36,022 bases of DNA from positions 1-36,022 of IMG/VR virus record IMGVR_UViG_3300042402_001959; one strand, given 5' to 3'. How positions within the stretch are numbered: position 1 is the stretch's first letter; every line of letters starts with the position of its first letter. The DNA is from a virus. This document shows, piece by piece, positions 2,429 through 30,464 of the stretch. The notes under the pieces are model-generated. The model searched no databases, was not told the origin of the DNA, and saw only the letters and a program-made list of their open reading frames with translations. The position numbers and the translations under genes were made by a program.

Positions 2429-2769
2429 AAGACGTGAAAAAGATCAAGTTTAAAGAAATCGAATACGACATCAACGTTGACCAGTTGTACGGAATCCCGG
2501 AAGTCGTTGCCGAGTACCTCATGTCCCACGCCGTGACCGTCCTCCTAGAAGGTCGCTACCAAGTCGATGGCGGCAACCCGGATGCGGGTGACCAGCCAGC
2601 ATGGCGCTTGCTCGACTGGAAGATCCTTTCTGTGAGCCTTGATAACGTGGTTCTAGATCACGACGAGCGCGTGCCGTCAGACTTCCCGATGGCGCTCGTC
2701 ATCAACAGCACCTACTCGCGCCATACCCGGGAGTACCTAGAGGCGCGACCGCCGGAGATGTACGAGTGA
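2425..2769 (+). CDS. Hypothetical protein, 114 aa
   Basis: Coupled to the gene before it by an ATGA overlap and preceded by AAGGAAG. The product starts MKDVKKIKFKEIEYDINVDQ and alternates short strands and acidic turns (KILSVSLDNVVLDHDERVP), suggesting a small alpha/beta fold. No family recognised. The composition is still GC-rich, unlike the next genes, so it may mark the left border of the AT-richer island. Confidence 0.7.
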   Translation: MKDVKKIKFKEIEYDINVDQLYGIPEVVAEYLMSHAVTVLLEGRYQVDGGNPDAGDQPAWRLLDWKILSVSLDNVVLDHDERVPSDFPMALVINSTYSRHTREYLEARPPEMYE

Positions 2770-3041
2770 GTTCAATACATGAAATGCAAAACAACGACGA
2801 TGGCGGCGACAAAGTTTTGTTAGCTGACGGGTTCGAAGATGCCTTTATTGGTCTGGCGCGACAATTCAATAAATGCTTTGCCGTTTATGACCATGAAAAA
2901 TGCATCAAGATATTGATTGACCGAGACGGCATGACACATGACGAAGCCGAAGAGTTCTTTGAGTTCAATGTCATTGGTTGTTATGTTGGCGAGTCAACAC
3001 CGTGCTTCTTTAATTGCGTGAAGATCGAAGAACTAAATTAA
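2766..3041 (+). CDS. Small conserved-type phage protein, 91 aa
   Basis: Starts at a GTG overlapping the previous stop. The core reads FEDAFIGLARQFNKCFAVYD, then CIKILIDRDGMTHDEAEEFF and EFNVIGCYVGESTPCFF. Proteins with this 'DAFIG...DGMT.EEA.E.FEFNV.G.YVGE.TP.F' pattern recur in many phages, usually beside DNA-metabolism or modification genes, and have no assigned function that I know. The DNA is distinctly richer in A and T than the preceding genes, marking the start of a composition island. Confidence 0.75.
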   Translation: MSSIHEMQNNDDGGDKVLLADGFEDAFIGLARQFNKCFAVYDHEKCIKILIDRDGMTHDEAEEFFEFNVIGCYVGESTPCFFNCVKIEELN

Positions 3042-3079
3042 AAACAACCTTTAAGTAAGACCAACAACGGATAACAAGC

Positions 3080-3310
3080 ATGGATAGCCTTTTTCCAACC
3101 GAAAAATCATGGCAGGCGGAATGGCAGGGGATGCCTGAATTTGTCCAGCCATGCAAAGAGTCAGTCATGTCGGTAGTAGTTCACTTTGAAACCTTTGAAG
3201 ACATGAGGGCTTTTGCAGCATTGATTGATGCTCGTATTGCGCCAACTACTAAAAGCCTGTTTTTCCCGGTGCGGTCTGTCGATAAAAAGGTATATGTCAA
3301 TGAACCCTAG
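3080..3310 (+). CDS. Glycosyltransferase companion protein, 76 aa
   Basis: The start MDSLFPTEKSWQAEWQGMPE contains the W..EW.GMPEF motif that I associate with small proteins next to phage ParB-like or DNA-modification genes. It is followed by a compact domain (VVVHFETFEDMRAFAALIDA, then TTKSLFFPV). Its 3' end overlaps the start of the glycosyltransferase gene by 11 bases, implying coupled translation and a shared task. Exact role unknown; a substrate or DNA-positioning partner is inference. Confidence 0.7.
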   Translation: MDSLFPTEKSWQAEWQGMPEFVQPCKESVMSVVVHFETFEDMRAFAALIDARIAPTTKSLFFPVRSVDKKVYVNEP

Positions 3311-4202
3311 ACACCCCGTTTATATCGTTAGCAAAGGGCGCTGGGAAACCAGAATGACGGCGCGGACACTTGAGTCGATGGGCGTGCCGTACTTTATTGT
3401 TGTTGAGGCACACGAATACGCCGAATATGCAGCGGTCATTGAACCGCGCAAAATCTTGATTCTGGATAAACAATTTCTTACTGATTACGTCACGCTTGAC
3501 AATCTTGGAGATTCAAAAAGCAAAGGGCCGGGAGCAGCGCGAAACTTTTGCTGGGCGCACGCCATAGCCAGCGGAGCTACTTGGCATTGGGTTCTCGACG
3601 ACAATATAAATGGGTTCGTCCGCCTAAATCACAACGAGCGCATTCGCGTTAATTCTGGCGCGATGTTTGCCGCTGCTGAAGACTTTGCAGAACGCTACGA
3701 GAATGTTGCTCAAGCGGGTTTTGAATATCGGTTTTTTGCAGGTGGTGGTCGCCGAGAAAAAGCACCATATCGAATAAATACTCGTATTTATTCATGCATT
3801 TTAATCCGCAACGACATTCCATTCAGATGGCGCGGACGCTACAACGAAGACACCATCCTGTCGCTTGACATTCTCACGCATGGATACGCGACGATTCTCT
3901 TTCAAGCGTTCTTGCAGAACAAAGCAGCAACGCAAACGGTCAAAGGTGGAAACTCAAAGGACTTTTACGACCACGAAGGCACGCGACCCAAGTCTGAAAT
4001 GCTGGTTAACACCTATCCCATGTACTCACACATAGTAACTCGCTACGGAAGATGCCACCATCACGTTGACTACTCATCGTTCCAGCAAACCAAATTGATT
4101 CGACGCAAGGGATTTATTGTTCCCGAAGGCATTAACAACTACGGCATGGTTTTGAAATCTGATATTGACACCAACAATCAAGTGGAGCAAGAAACGACAT
4201 GA
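3300..4202 (+). CDS. TET/JBP-associated-type glycosyltransferase (DNA hypermodification candidate)
   Basis: About 300 residues. The start is VYIVSKGRWETRMTARTLES, then a short strand-helix nucleotide-sugar fold, the GPGAARNFCWAHA segment, and WHWVLDDNINGF with the acidic DD pair expected of a GT-A-type metal/nucleotide site. A conserved acidic motif (RGRYNEDTILSLD) follows. This pattern matches the phage TAGT glycosyltransferases described by Iyer and Aravind, thought to put sugars on hydroxylated DNA bases. No base hydroxylase, hydroxymethylase or TET-like enzyme is visible here, so the acceptor is unknown. Start: ATG at 3300, nine bases after AAAAAGG; an ATG at 3294 is possible. It overlaps the companion gene and the next gene (ATGA). 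Confidence 0.8.
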   Translation: MNPRHPVYIVSKGRWETRMTARTLESMGVPYFIVVEAHEYAEYAAVIEPRKILILDKQFLTDYVTLDNLGDSKSKGPGAARNFCWAHAIASGATWHWVLDDNINGFVRLNHNERIRVNSGAMFAAAEDFAERYENVAQAGFEYRFFAGGGRREKAPYRINTRIYSCILIRNDIPFRWRGRYNEDTILSLDILTHGYATILFQAFLQNKAATQTVKGGNSKDFYDHEGTRPKSEMLVNTYPMYSHIVTRYGRCHHHVDYSSFQQTKLIRRKGFIVPEGINNYGMVLKSDIDTNNQVEQETT

Positions 4203-28553: not shown

Positions 28554-30464
28554 TTATGCGTTTACGAAACCGGGGTCAGGAACTTGGCGCGTGTCCACTA
28601 GCCGCTGACGCGCTCCGTTGTGCTTGGCAATAGCGGCTGGGTCTATCGTCCCGTTCGGGCGCGTCCATCGCTCGCGCAAAGCCTCGGCGGCAGGGACGGG
28701 AATGATGGCGCAGCGGCAGTTGCTTACGACTATACTGTCAGCAAGAAGAATGCCGCTGCTACTACGGAAGTCATACACATGGCCAGACCAATCAGAAACA
28801 ACATCGACATCGACGACATCGTCAAGCGTTACCGCGCTGGCGAAAGTACCAACCAAATCGCCAAATCTGTCGGCGTTTCTCGCCGTGCAATCGACATACG
28901 GCTCAAGCGCCGCGGCGTTCATCTCCGCACGCAAGGGGAGTCCGAAGCGTTGAAATGGAGCCGGATCAAGCAAGATCCTGCCGCTATCAAGCGCCAATGC
29001 GGAGCCGCTTGGGCTGCTTCTCGCGGTCGCAAACGAAGCATGGACGAGATGATTCGAAGTGCCAAGTCCTGCTCTCGGCGAACTAGCCCGGACGAGCTGC
29101 CGCTCTTTGATGCCATCCGTGCGCTCGGCATTGACGGTATCGAACACCAGCACGCGGTCGGCCCATACAACCTCGATTTCGCCCTGCATGGAAAGCGCGT
29201 CGCCGTAGAACACATGGCGGGAAGTCTTCGCATTGACAGTCGTTGCGGCTACAGCCTTCGCCGCAAGCGTGTCGAATACTTGCAGGGCTGTGGGTGGCAG
29301 GTGGTCGCCCTTGTCGTTTCCGGATCGTTCCGCCGTGTCCACGGCGTTGCCGCTGCGGCGCAGCATCTTGTCGCCAACCTTGACAGCATAAGCAGGCAAC
29401 CATCCTCGGCTGGTGAGTATTGGGTGGTTGGCTGTCGCTGTGACAGTATGACCAGACCGCGTATTGAGGTTTACCAACGCTCCGCGATATAGCGAACGGA
29501 AGCCGATATCGACCGCCCCTTCAACGGGTTGCCATCCGGGGAAGCAGTTGAAGCCAAGCGGCGGGGCAATCCCAAGGCGGTCAAAGTCTGCCATCGTCCC
29601 GACGTAGCCGTCAAAGGCTCGATGCGTGTCCCGCGTGCGCGGGTCTTTGGTGGCGCTGAATTGCACTAGCGGGACGAACGCCTGTACCCGCTCATCCCGT
29701 AGGACTTCGGCGCTGCCCTCGGTCATGGCGCGGTTCGTGTTCGTACGCAGGACGGTTTCAAGGCGGGAAGACGTTAGCCCTGTCCCGGTCATGAGTTGGG
29801 CGGTGGTCACGAAGTCGCCGAGGTTCATGGTCTTGATGAGCTTGCCGACCACGCTTTTGGTAGGGCGCTCTTCGATGACCTGCGCGATCAGTTCCTGCAC
29901 CATGCGCGTTTGAGCGGGGTTCATGGCAGTCACAAAGAAGGTGGTATCGACGATCCGCTTCACCCGGGAGATAGCGCCCTGCGGCCCTCGTGTAACACCG
30001 CGTAACAACGAATCGAGGATTGGGGACTGCTTGCGGAGGTCAGGAAGGGCGTTTTCGCGTTCGTGATCGGTCACGTCCCCAGCGCTGGCGGCGGCTGCCT
30101 TAATGAGCAGCTCCCAGTCGGCGCGTGAGATTGGGACGCGCTTCCTGAACCAACCCGTGATCGGAGCCATCCACTTCGTCCCGAAGCCCTCAAGGGAGAT
30201 CGGTACGTCCCGGTCGAACTTGACCGCGTCCCCATCGTCGAGCATTCCCTCAATAGCCCCATCCGGGATCTTGGCGGTGTCCACGGTGTCACGCGCCCCG
30301 AACAACCACGATGCCATTAGGAGCGCCGCCGTTGCCTCGTGAAACTCTGCCCACGCGGCGAGGGCATCTTCGCCCCTGACCTGCGCCGCGACCGCACGGC
30401 GGTACGCCTGCTGCGACTGGCGCAGGACTTTGCGGAGGTGCTTGTCTAGTTCGGCTTTTGTCAT
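28554..30464 (-). CDS. Mu gpF-like minor head protein interrupted by an intein
   Basis: 636 codons in one frame; residues 307-582 are an intein, leaving a 360-residue spliced product. The host part has a helical N-terminus (MTKAELDKHLRKVLRQSQQA) and the Mu gpF/SPP1 gp7 signature: RLETVLRTNTNRAMTEGSAE, then VQFSATKDPRTRDTHRAFDG, then APPLGFN joined after splicing to CRCAIIPVPA. In this family the block ends in PP..NCRC; the intein sits exactly between the Asn and the first Cys. The protein binds portal and head interior and is needed for head assembly, so splicing should be essential. ATGA overlap with the portal gene. The reverse strand of the intein carries another gene. Confidence 0.85.
   Translation of the reverse strand: MTKAELDKHLRKVLRQSQQAYRRAVAAQVRGEDALAAWAEFHEATAALLMASWLFGARDTVDTAKIPDGAIEGMLDDGDAVKFDRDVPISLEGFGTKWMAPITGWFRKRVPISRADWELLIKAAAASAGDVTDHERENALPDLRKQSPILDSLLRGVTRGPQGAISRVKRIVDTTFFVTAMNPAQTRMVQELIAQVIEERPTKSVVGKLIKTMNLGDFVTTAQLMTGTGLTSSRLETVLRTNTNRAMTEGSAEVLRDERVQAFVPLVQFSATKDPRTRDTHRAFDGYVGTMADFDRLGIAPPLGFNCFPGWQPVEGAVDIGFRSLYRGALVNLNTRSGHTVTATANHPILTSRGWLPAYAVKVGDKMLRRSGNAVDTAERSGNDKGDHLPPTALQVFDTLAAKAVAATTVNAKTSRHVFYGDALSMQGEIEVVWADRVLVFDTVNAERTDGIKERQLVRASSPRAGLGTSNHLVHASFATARSSPSGSALALDSGRILLDPAPFQRFGLPLRAEMNAAALEPYVDCTARNADRFGDLVGTFASAVTLDDVVDVDVVSDWSGHVYDFRSSSGILLADSIVVSNCRCAIIPVPAAEALRERWTRPNGTIDPAAIAKHNGARQRLVDTRQVPDPGFVNA
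28719..29546 (-). other. Intein (276 aa) inside the minor head gene
   Basis: The intein begins at Cys1 (CFPGWQPVEG, splicing block A). Block B is GHTVTATANHPILT with the T-x-x-H pattern (Thr38, His41). Block F/G is WSGHVYDF ... ILLADSIVVSN, ending in Asn276 followed by Cys+1 of the extein. The penultimate residue is Ser, not the usual His, a known but minority variant that can slow Asn cyclisation. Between B and F there are about 190 residues with no LAGLIDADG or HNH motif in this frame. Instead the complementary strand (28779-29492) encodes an HTH plus nuclease protein. The insertion point, N|CRC in the most conserved motif of the host protein, is typical for selfish inteins. Confidence 0.88.
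28779..29492 (+). CDS. Antisense-encoded HTH + Vsr/EDxHD-like homing endonuclease candidate
   Basis: 237 residues on the plus strand, wholly inside the intein coding region and the only plus-strand gene beyond 8045. ATG 28779 follows GGAAG at eight bases. Residues 8-48 are a clear HTH: NIDIDDIVKRYRAGESTNQI, then AKSVGVSRRAIDIRLKRRGV. Residues about 104-182 fit the Vsr/DUF559-like nuclease fold used by EDxHD homing endonucleases: DELPLFDAIRALGIDG, then QHAVGPYNLDFALHGKR (Asp133), VAVEHMAG (Glu144), and RRKRVEYLQGCGWQVVALVV. The His normally seen after the Glu motif (GGWH) is Arg here, so activity may be weakened. Its codons are exact reverse complements of intein codons. It would cut intein-free copies of the head gene and spread the intein. 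Confidence 0.72.
   Translation: MARPIRNNIDIDDIVKRYRAGESTNQIAKSVGVSRRAIDIRLKRRGVHLRTQGESEALKWSRIKQDPAAIKRQCGAAWAASRGRKRSMDEMIRSAKSCSRRTSPDELPLFDAIRALGIDGIEHQHAVGPYNLDFALHGKRVAVEHMAGSLRIDSRCGYSLRRKRVEYLQGCGWQVVALVVSGSFRRVHGVAAAAQHLVANLDSISRQPSSAGEYWVVGCRCDSMTRPRIEVYQRSAI

Follow-up and report, generated by a model that had tools for sequence, protein, structure and literature searches.

A phage head-gene intein with a predicted homing endonuclease encoded codon on codon on its complementary strand

Introduction

In the textbook arrangement the endonuclease of a mobile intein is an in-frame domain of the intein polypeptide (PMC3943268). The locus described here raises the question of whether an intein can instead share its DNA with an endonuclease gene on the opposite strand, and whether both of the overlapping frames are real genes. 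The locus is part of IMG/VR virus record IMGVR_UViG_3300042402_001959, from which 36,022 bases were analyzed (the window). The original prediction for this DNA placed a 276 residue intein in a minor head gene and, on its complement, a 237 codon ORF with an ATG start, a GGAAG 8 nt upstream and the same codon boundaries as the intein, all of which was correct (Table 1).

Table 1. Positions of the overlapping genes and their sequence elements in the window
Feature	Position	Strand	Evidence or remark
Host gene, Mu gpF-like minor head protein, intein-interrupted	28554..30464	-	Phage_Mu_F 7.7e-11; phrog_15127 head protein 5.7e-44; intein-less alleles with uninterrupted FNCRC
Exteins of the gpF-like host gene	29547-30464 and 28554-28718	-	
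Intein, 276 aa, Cys1 to Asn276, followed by Cys+1	28719..29546	-	Sequence; AlphaFold; Foldseek
Intein block A region CFPGWQPVEGAVD, outside the antisense gene	29508..29546	-	Sequence; C1 invariant in alignment A6
Intein block B VTATANHPILTS, opposite the C-terminal tail of the antisense protein	29409..29444	-	T38 and H41 invariant; sense-dominated conservation
Sense motif F-Y-G-D (FHGD in the family), opposite nuclease V-A-V-E	29199..29210	-	Both strands constrained
Intein block F HVYDFRSSSGILLAD; complement is the antisense start codon and ribosome-binding site	28737..28781	-	
Intein block G (VVSN), before Cys+1	28719..28730	-	Sequence; N276 invariant
Antisense gene, predicted homing endonuclease, 237 aa, codon on codon with the intein, stop included	28779..29492	+	
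Shine-Dalgarno-like GGAAG, 8 nt 5' of the ATG	28766..28770	+	GAGGTT in most relatives
Helix-turn-helix, residues 11-44	28809..28910	+	HTH_7 1.6e-5; helices 11-19, 24-31 and 35-44, pLDDT 95-98
Vsr/EDxHD-like nuclease core, residues 104-180	29088..29318	+	Conserved residues; AlphaFold model; PDB structure and profile matches
C-terminal tail, residues 196-237, opposite block B	29364..29489	+	GQYRVIRGDG-type motif in relatives; mainly reflects sense constraint

Results

The sense strand encodes an intein that splits a conserved head protein motif

The insertion point lies between FN and CRC of the Mu gpF-like protein, splitting its conserved CRC motif. The insert has a cysteine at position 1, the TxxH of block B (T38 and H41) and a terminal N276 followed by a cysteine. 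The product of 28719-29546 on the - strand has a Hint fold in its AlphaFold model, with pLDDT values of 94-98 at both ends, and its top Foldseek matches were inteins (Mtu RecA, RadA and others; best E 2.7e-3, probability 1.00). The middle of the model, residues 135-239, was poorly predicted (pLDDT 36-50) and lies opposite the helix-turn-helix (HTH) and linker of the antisense protein.

A predicted disordered middle that changes freely is what would be seen if the insert were no longer an intein, with the antisense endonuclease alone under selection and the sense frame merely kept open inside gpF. We consider this very improbable, as C1, T38, H41 and N276 were invariant across the 62 sequences of alignment A6, blocks A, B, F and G showed sense-dominated conservation and were confidently modelled, and the insertion splits a conserved motif. 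Among the four residues T38 and H41 carry most of the weight because some rows of the alignment were chosen by C1 and the terminal N. We retain the reading of an intein on the head gene strand.

The complementary strand encodes a predicted HTH-nuclease protein

The antisense ORF begins with the ATG at 28779, codes from 28779 to 29489, ends with a stop codon at 29490-29492 and uses the codon boundaries of the sense frame. Judged by profile matches and a predicted structure, its product looks like an HTH domain followed by a Vsr/EDxHD-like nuclease. Both domains had been called recognisable in the original prediction, with the nuclease core set opposite intein residues of about 110-131, and each was recovered; the HTH_7 match was better than the Pfam cut-off, the nuclease matched PDB entry 3r3p by fold and by profile, and the core motif GPYNLDFALHGKRVAVEHMA lies opposite intein residues 129-110. 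Other family matches were weak, with MTES_1575 (0.0014) and DUF559 (0.0023) below their respective Pfam cut-offs and PRK09767 at 0.00036. A phmmer search of the single antisense protein against the PDB gave nothing useful and matches came from the family profile alone, which detected 3r3p, the catalytic domain of the homing endonuclease I-Bth0305I, at 1.4e-6 and 3hrl, a DUF559-like, endonuclease-like protein, at 3.7e-6.

The AlphaFold model of the antisense protein (pLDDT 86.4) comprised the three HTH helices, linker helices and an alpha-beta-beta-beta-alpha-beta core (H104-115, E121-127, E130-136, E141-147, H155-170 and E174-180). Its best neighbour among 350,542 PDB chains was 3r3p, with a modest Foldseek E value of 5.7e-3 and a probability of 1.00. 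Residues E106, Y130, N131, D133, A142, E144 and R164 were invariant or nearly so in the family. Of the eponymous EDxHD catalytic residues, E106, D133 and E144 are conserved, also in the window protein, while the H and D of the motif have no assignment and the 3r3p residue aligned to D133 is Ala. The sense and antisense models taken together therefore indicate that each strand is ordered where the other encodes a loop, except at the nuclease core and at blocks B and F.

Both frames are open in relatives from diverse phages

A tblastn search with the antisense protein detected relatives in 106 phage records (best 5e-20), from phages of Salmonella, Pseudomonas, Gordonia, Vibrio, Haemophilus, Idiomarinaceae and others. 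Most matches lay opposite genes annotated as head protein or as hypothetical protein in the head operon, and in nearly all loci that were read the antisense homologue was opposite the intein of a head-type gene, with one in a dCMP deaminase. Haemophilus phage Aaphi23 matched the antisense protein better (94 bits) than the sense protein (63 bits). The antisense frame was open codon on codon over the intein for about 200-350 codons in 16 of 16 hand-read genes, AT-rich ones included; all of these frames had the YN[LI]D and VAVE-type motifs, and all except the short REQ3 copy had one or more HTHs. Scans of IMG/VR and GTDB genomes produced many further loci, and both frames were open in nearly all of the 139 examined. 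The element was not found in E. coli genomes by nucleotide search with one Salmonella-phage member as query, nearly all plasmids were without it, and in one actinobacterial family it was present in 3 of 301 genomes.

Several features of individual relatives were also noted. Intein lengths clustered near 270-290 and near 320 residues, and the longer inteins were paired with antisense proteins having an extra N-terminal HTH. In Salmonella phage PK1 two antisense ORFs (L070:2399-3208 and 2685-3131) are annotated as hypothetical proteins, and by feature names the same ORFs are called in PK2 and vB_StyS-sam; the endonuclease has thus been annotated in PK1 but not recognised. A single homologue (L173:1141-1860) had stops in both frames and is probably a decayed copy. 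One phage gene (L178, - strand) has two inteins near each other, with a second intein C-terminus, VYDLHIQDDHSFIASDVPVHN followed by S, near 3800-3975 just upstream of the antisense-coded intein.

Openness of the antisense frame is not explained by base composition

GC-rich DNA often has long open antisense frames in this same phase, a caveat that the original prediction had itself raised and that was borne out by other long antisense ORFs in the window and by open antisense stretches in the exteins of Gordonia genes. The antisense frame could on this account be a by-product, the intein alone being real and the nuclease its complement read backwards. Antisense stops in homologous inteins had been singled out as a check, and nearly none were seen. 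The antisense core of 106 non-redundant loci contained 1 stop as compared to about 748 expected under sense-only coding, an expectation obtained by recoding the same sense proteins with the codon usage found elsewhere in their genes. The estimate includes a pseudocount and is rough for short flanks, but its error is too small to account for this difference. The result also held for AT-rich members, as the 24 loci with GC3 below 0.5 had no antisense stops as compared to 343 expected. The sense frame likewise had no stops as compared to about 562 expected under antisense-only coding. When scored with an HMM built without the antisense proteins being scored, 91 of 91 real antisense proteins exceeded all 20 synonymous recodings of their own sense protein, with medians of 206 bits for the real and 52 bits for the recoded proteins.

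Synonymous recoding of the same sense proteins abolished both the openness and most of the HMM score, which rules out chance openness and compositional bias. Together with the substitution positions described below it also rules out antisense similarity being an echo of sense similarity. Most loci were retrieved via the antisense sequence, and ascertainment was checked with divergent loci that were retrieved with the sense protein; 7 of 7 carried the antisense protein (4e-42 to 9e-55).

The initiation signals of the antisense gene are selected

On the complement of block F (HVYNL), the conserved His codon reads as the antisense ATG and the Asn-Leu codons supply the GAGGTT ribosome-binding site of the relatives. 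The His codon was CAT in 67 of 72 loci as compared to 29 expected from the same genes, and in 31 of the 35 loci where CAT is otherwise rare. The Leu that follows in block F was encoded by CTC, which reads GAGG on the other strand, in 53 of 63 loci as compared to 13 expected. The window itself has Asp-Phe at the Asn-Leu site and the weaker GGAAG. The start codon and the Shine-Dalgarno bases are selected. A promoter scan of the region found no sigma-70-like site on the + strand.

Substitutions indicate selection on both strands

With codon boundaries shared, a base at sense position 3 occupies position 1 of the antisense codon, and vice versa. Comparison of the window with a close relative (L008) revealed 90 differences in 1911 nt. 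At sense positions 1/2/3 these were distributed 2/0/48 in the N-extein and 15/7/9 in the overlap with the antisense gene (Fisher 7e-8), and the intein ends outside of the antisense gene had 0/0/3 and 0/0/2. Nine independent pairs from other lineages showed 290/54/167 in the core as compared to 440/301/1062 in the exteins. The core of the Jerseyviruses PK1 and LPSE1 differed at 20/2/2, with 19 changes silent for the antisense protein only and 1 silent for the sense protein only. Further Fisher values for this flip of the substitution spectrum, from the nine-pair and Jerseyvirus comparisons, were 3e-6 and 8e-9. The shift from sense position 3 to position 1 stops at the borders of the endonuclease gene.

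A conservation map demonstrated antisense dominance over residues 16-185 of the antisense protein, sense dominance opposite block B, and conservation on both strands at the nuclease core and FHGD. The antisense frame is under purifying selection of its own, which is dominant in the nuclease and HTH part; selection visible in the sense frame only, another check named in the original prediction, was not what was seen. The reading of the antisense frame as a by-product is refuted by the recoding null, by the codon choice at the start and Shine-Dalgarno sites and by the excess in the core of nuclease-silent over sense-silent changes, and we assign it a negligible chance. The antisense frame is conserved and selected in its own right.

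The original prediction had also guessed that a whole family of inteins is dual-coded and recognisable by a sense signature of the type DFHGDG...DVDVV, and this was right. It had further proposed that the signature is a shadow of the enzyme on the other strand, which is in large part the case, the nuclease motif accounting for much of it but leaving a residual constraint on FHGD. The codons at nuclease V141, A142, V143 and E144 were GTC in 43/44, GCC in 62/64, GTG in 57/59 and GAA in 58/68 sequences. Their third bases are silent for the nuclease and are nearly fixed as compared to other positions, with p values of 4e-10 to 1e-41 that are optimistic as the rows are related. FHGD is therefore selected on the sense strand too, and these near-fixed antisense wobble bases rule out DFHGDG as a pure shadow of the nuclease.

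The element is present or absent at a single codon junction

In relatives that are 92-98% identical the element was absent exactly at FN|CRC, leaving FNCRC uninterrupted, so that close relatives differ by its presence or absence at one site. The N-exteins of PK1 and LPSE1 differed at 226 of 729 nt and their inteins by a few percent, as would be expected from a recent transfer of the intein. Portal-containing proteins were further hosts of the same intein type. The type was also observed in the zinc-binding motif of a dCMP deaminase of virus Rctr197k (L073:2129-3481) and in the UDG domain of a polypeptide with additional exonuclease and family A DNA polymerase domains (L118:1-4092).

These observations bear on whether the antisense gene, although real and selected, could have a role other than homing, for example as a DNA-binding regulator or as a nuclease acting against rival phages or in packaging. 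Its HTH matches are strong, its nuclease family matches fall below the Pfam cut-offs and cleavage is a prediction, all of which would suit such a role. However, the acid residues of the nuclease are invariant or nearly so across 68 diverse members, the top PDB match by structure is itself a homing endonuclease, and the gene is part of a predicted self-splicing element that interrupts conserved motifs, is missing from some alleles and shows evidence of having been transferred recently. We judge a role other than homing to be unlikely and favor a homing endonuclease.

Discussion

The locus has two conserved and selected frames with their own initiation signals, two predicted folds and an insertion polymorphism at one codon junction. 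In our view this is very probably a mobile intein that has its homing endonuclease gene on the opposite strand, the codons of the two genes sharing their boundaries, and the main doubt within this picture concerns the antisense protein as an active homing endonuclease, which we infer. The endonuclease would not lie in frame between blocks B and F, each codon instead being the reverse complement of one on the other strand. The head-gene strand would produce a Hint splicing domain with a long connecting loop, and the opposite strand a free-standing soluble protein in which an N-terminal HTH (two of them in longer members) precedes a Vsr/EDxHD-like nuclease. The sense product would excise itself from gpF by splicing, the antisense product would bind gpF genes that lack the intein and cut them near the FN|CRC codons, and repair from the intein-bearing copy would spread both genes as a single unit.

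If this is correct, phage inteins for which annotation shows no known nuclease may in fact be complete mobile elements, with an endonuclease that was overlooked on the other strand. The family would also offer a large natural set in which two folded proteins share DNA codon on codon, making the structural trade-off directly measurable, and a reservoir of new site-specific nucleases.

We lean somewhat towards regarding these elements as an old, widespread and undescribed class of phage intein that obligately has its splicing domain on one strand and a Vsr-like homing endonuclease on the other, in the same register. In such a class the start signal, the active-site motifs and the cores of two unrelated folds would lie face to face, under dual selection across diverse hosts and base compositions. 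A limited literature search found no antisense or overlapping endonuclease in inteins, and papers touching on the head-protein inteins of phages do not refer to an antisense gene (PMC7468147, PMC11162368). A passage of PMC11855218 cites, for overlapping reading frames, a 2025 preprint on actinophage inteins with 'non-canonical architecture'. This preprint could cover part of the present finding, several of the hosts here being Gordonia phages.

Canonical large inteins with in-frame LAGLIDADG or HNH endonucleases, such as PI-SceI, likewise combine a Hint domain in a conserved host motif with a homing endonuclease. Their endonuclease, however, is within the intein polypeptide, whereas here it is a separate protein of the complementary strand that overlaps blocks B and F. 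The EDxHD homing endonucleases (I-Bth0305I) are similar in having a Vsr-like nuclease with an extra DNA-binding domain, and they gave the best PDB fold match and a significant profile match. Dassa et al. reportedly described EDxHD homing endonuclease genes between split inteins in 2009. To our knowledge the DNA of the EDxHD enzymes does not also code for another protein, unlike the element described here. The ShiLan domain, an out-of-frame HNH on the same strand in a phage methylase insertion, is comparable in that an endonuclease ORF is concealed in an insertion through which the host frame also stays open, but differs in using another frame of the same strand and an HNH, and in having no splicing domain and no recognisable ribosome-binding site (PMC11855218). 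Antisense homing endonuclease genes have also been described in nuclear group I introns, and these share with the phage element an endonuclease gene on the strand opposite the host transcript but differ in that the host is an RNA intron in rDNA and no codons are shared with a translated protein (PMC9548176).
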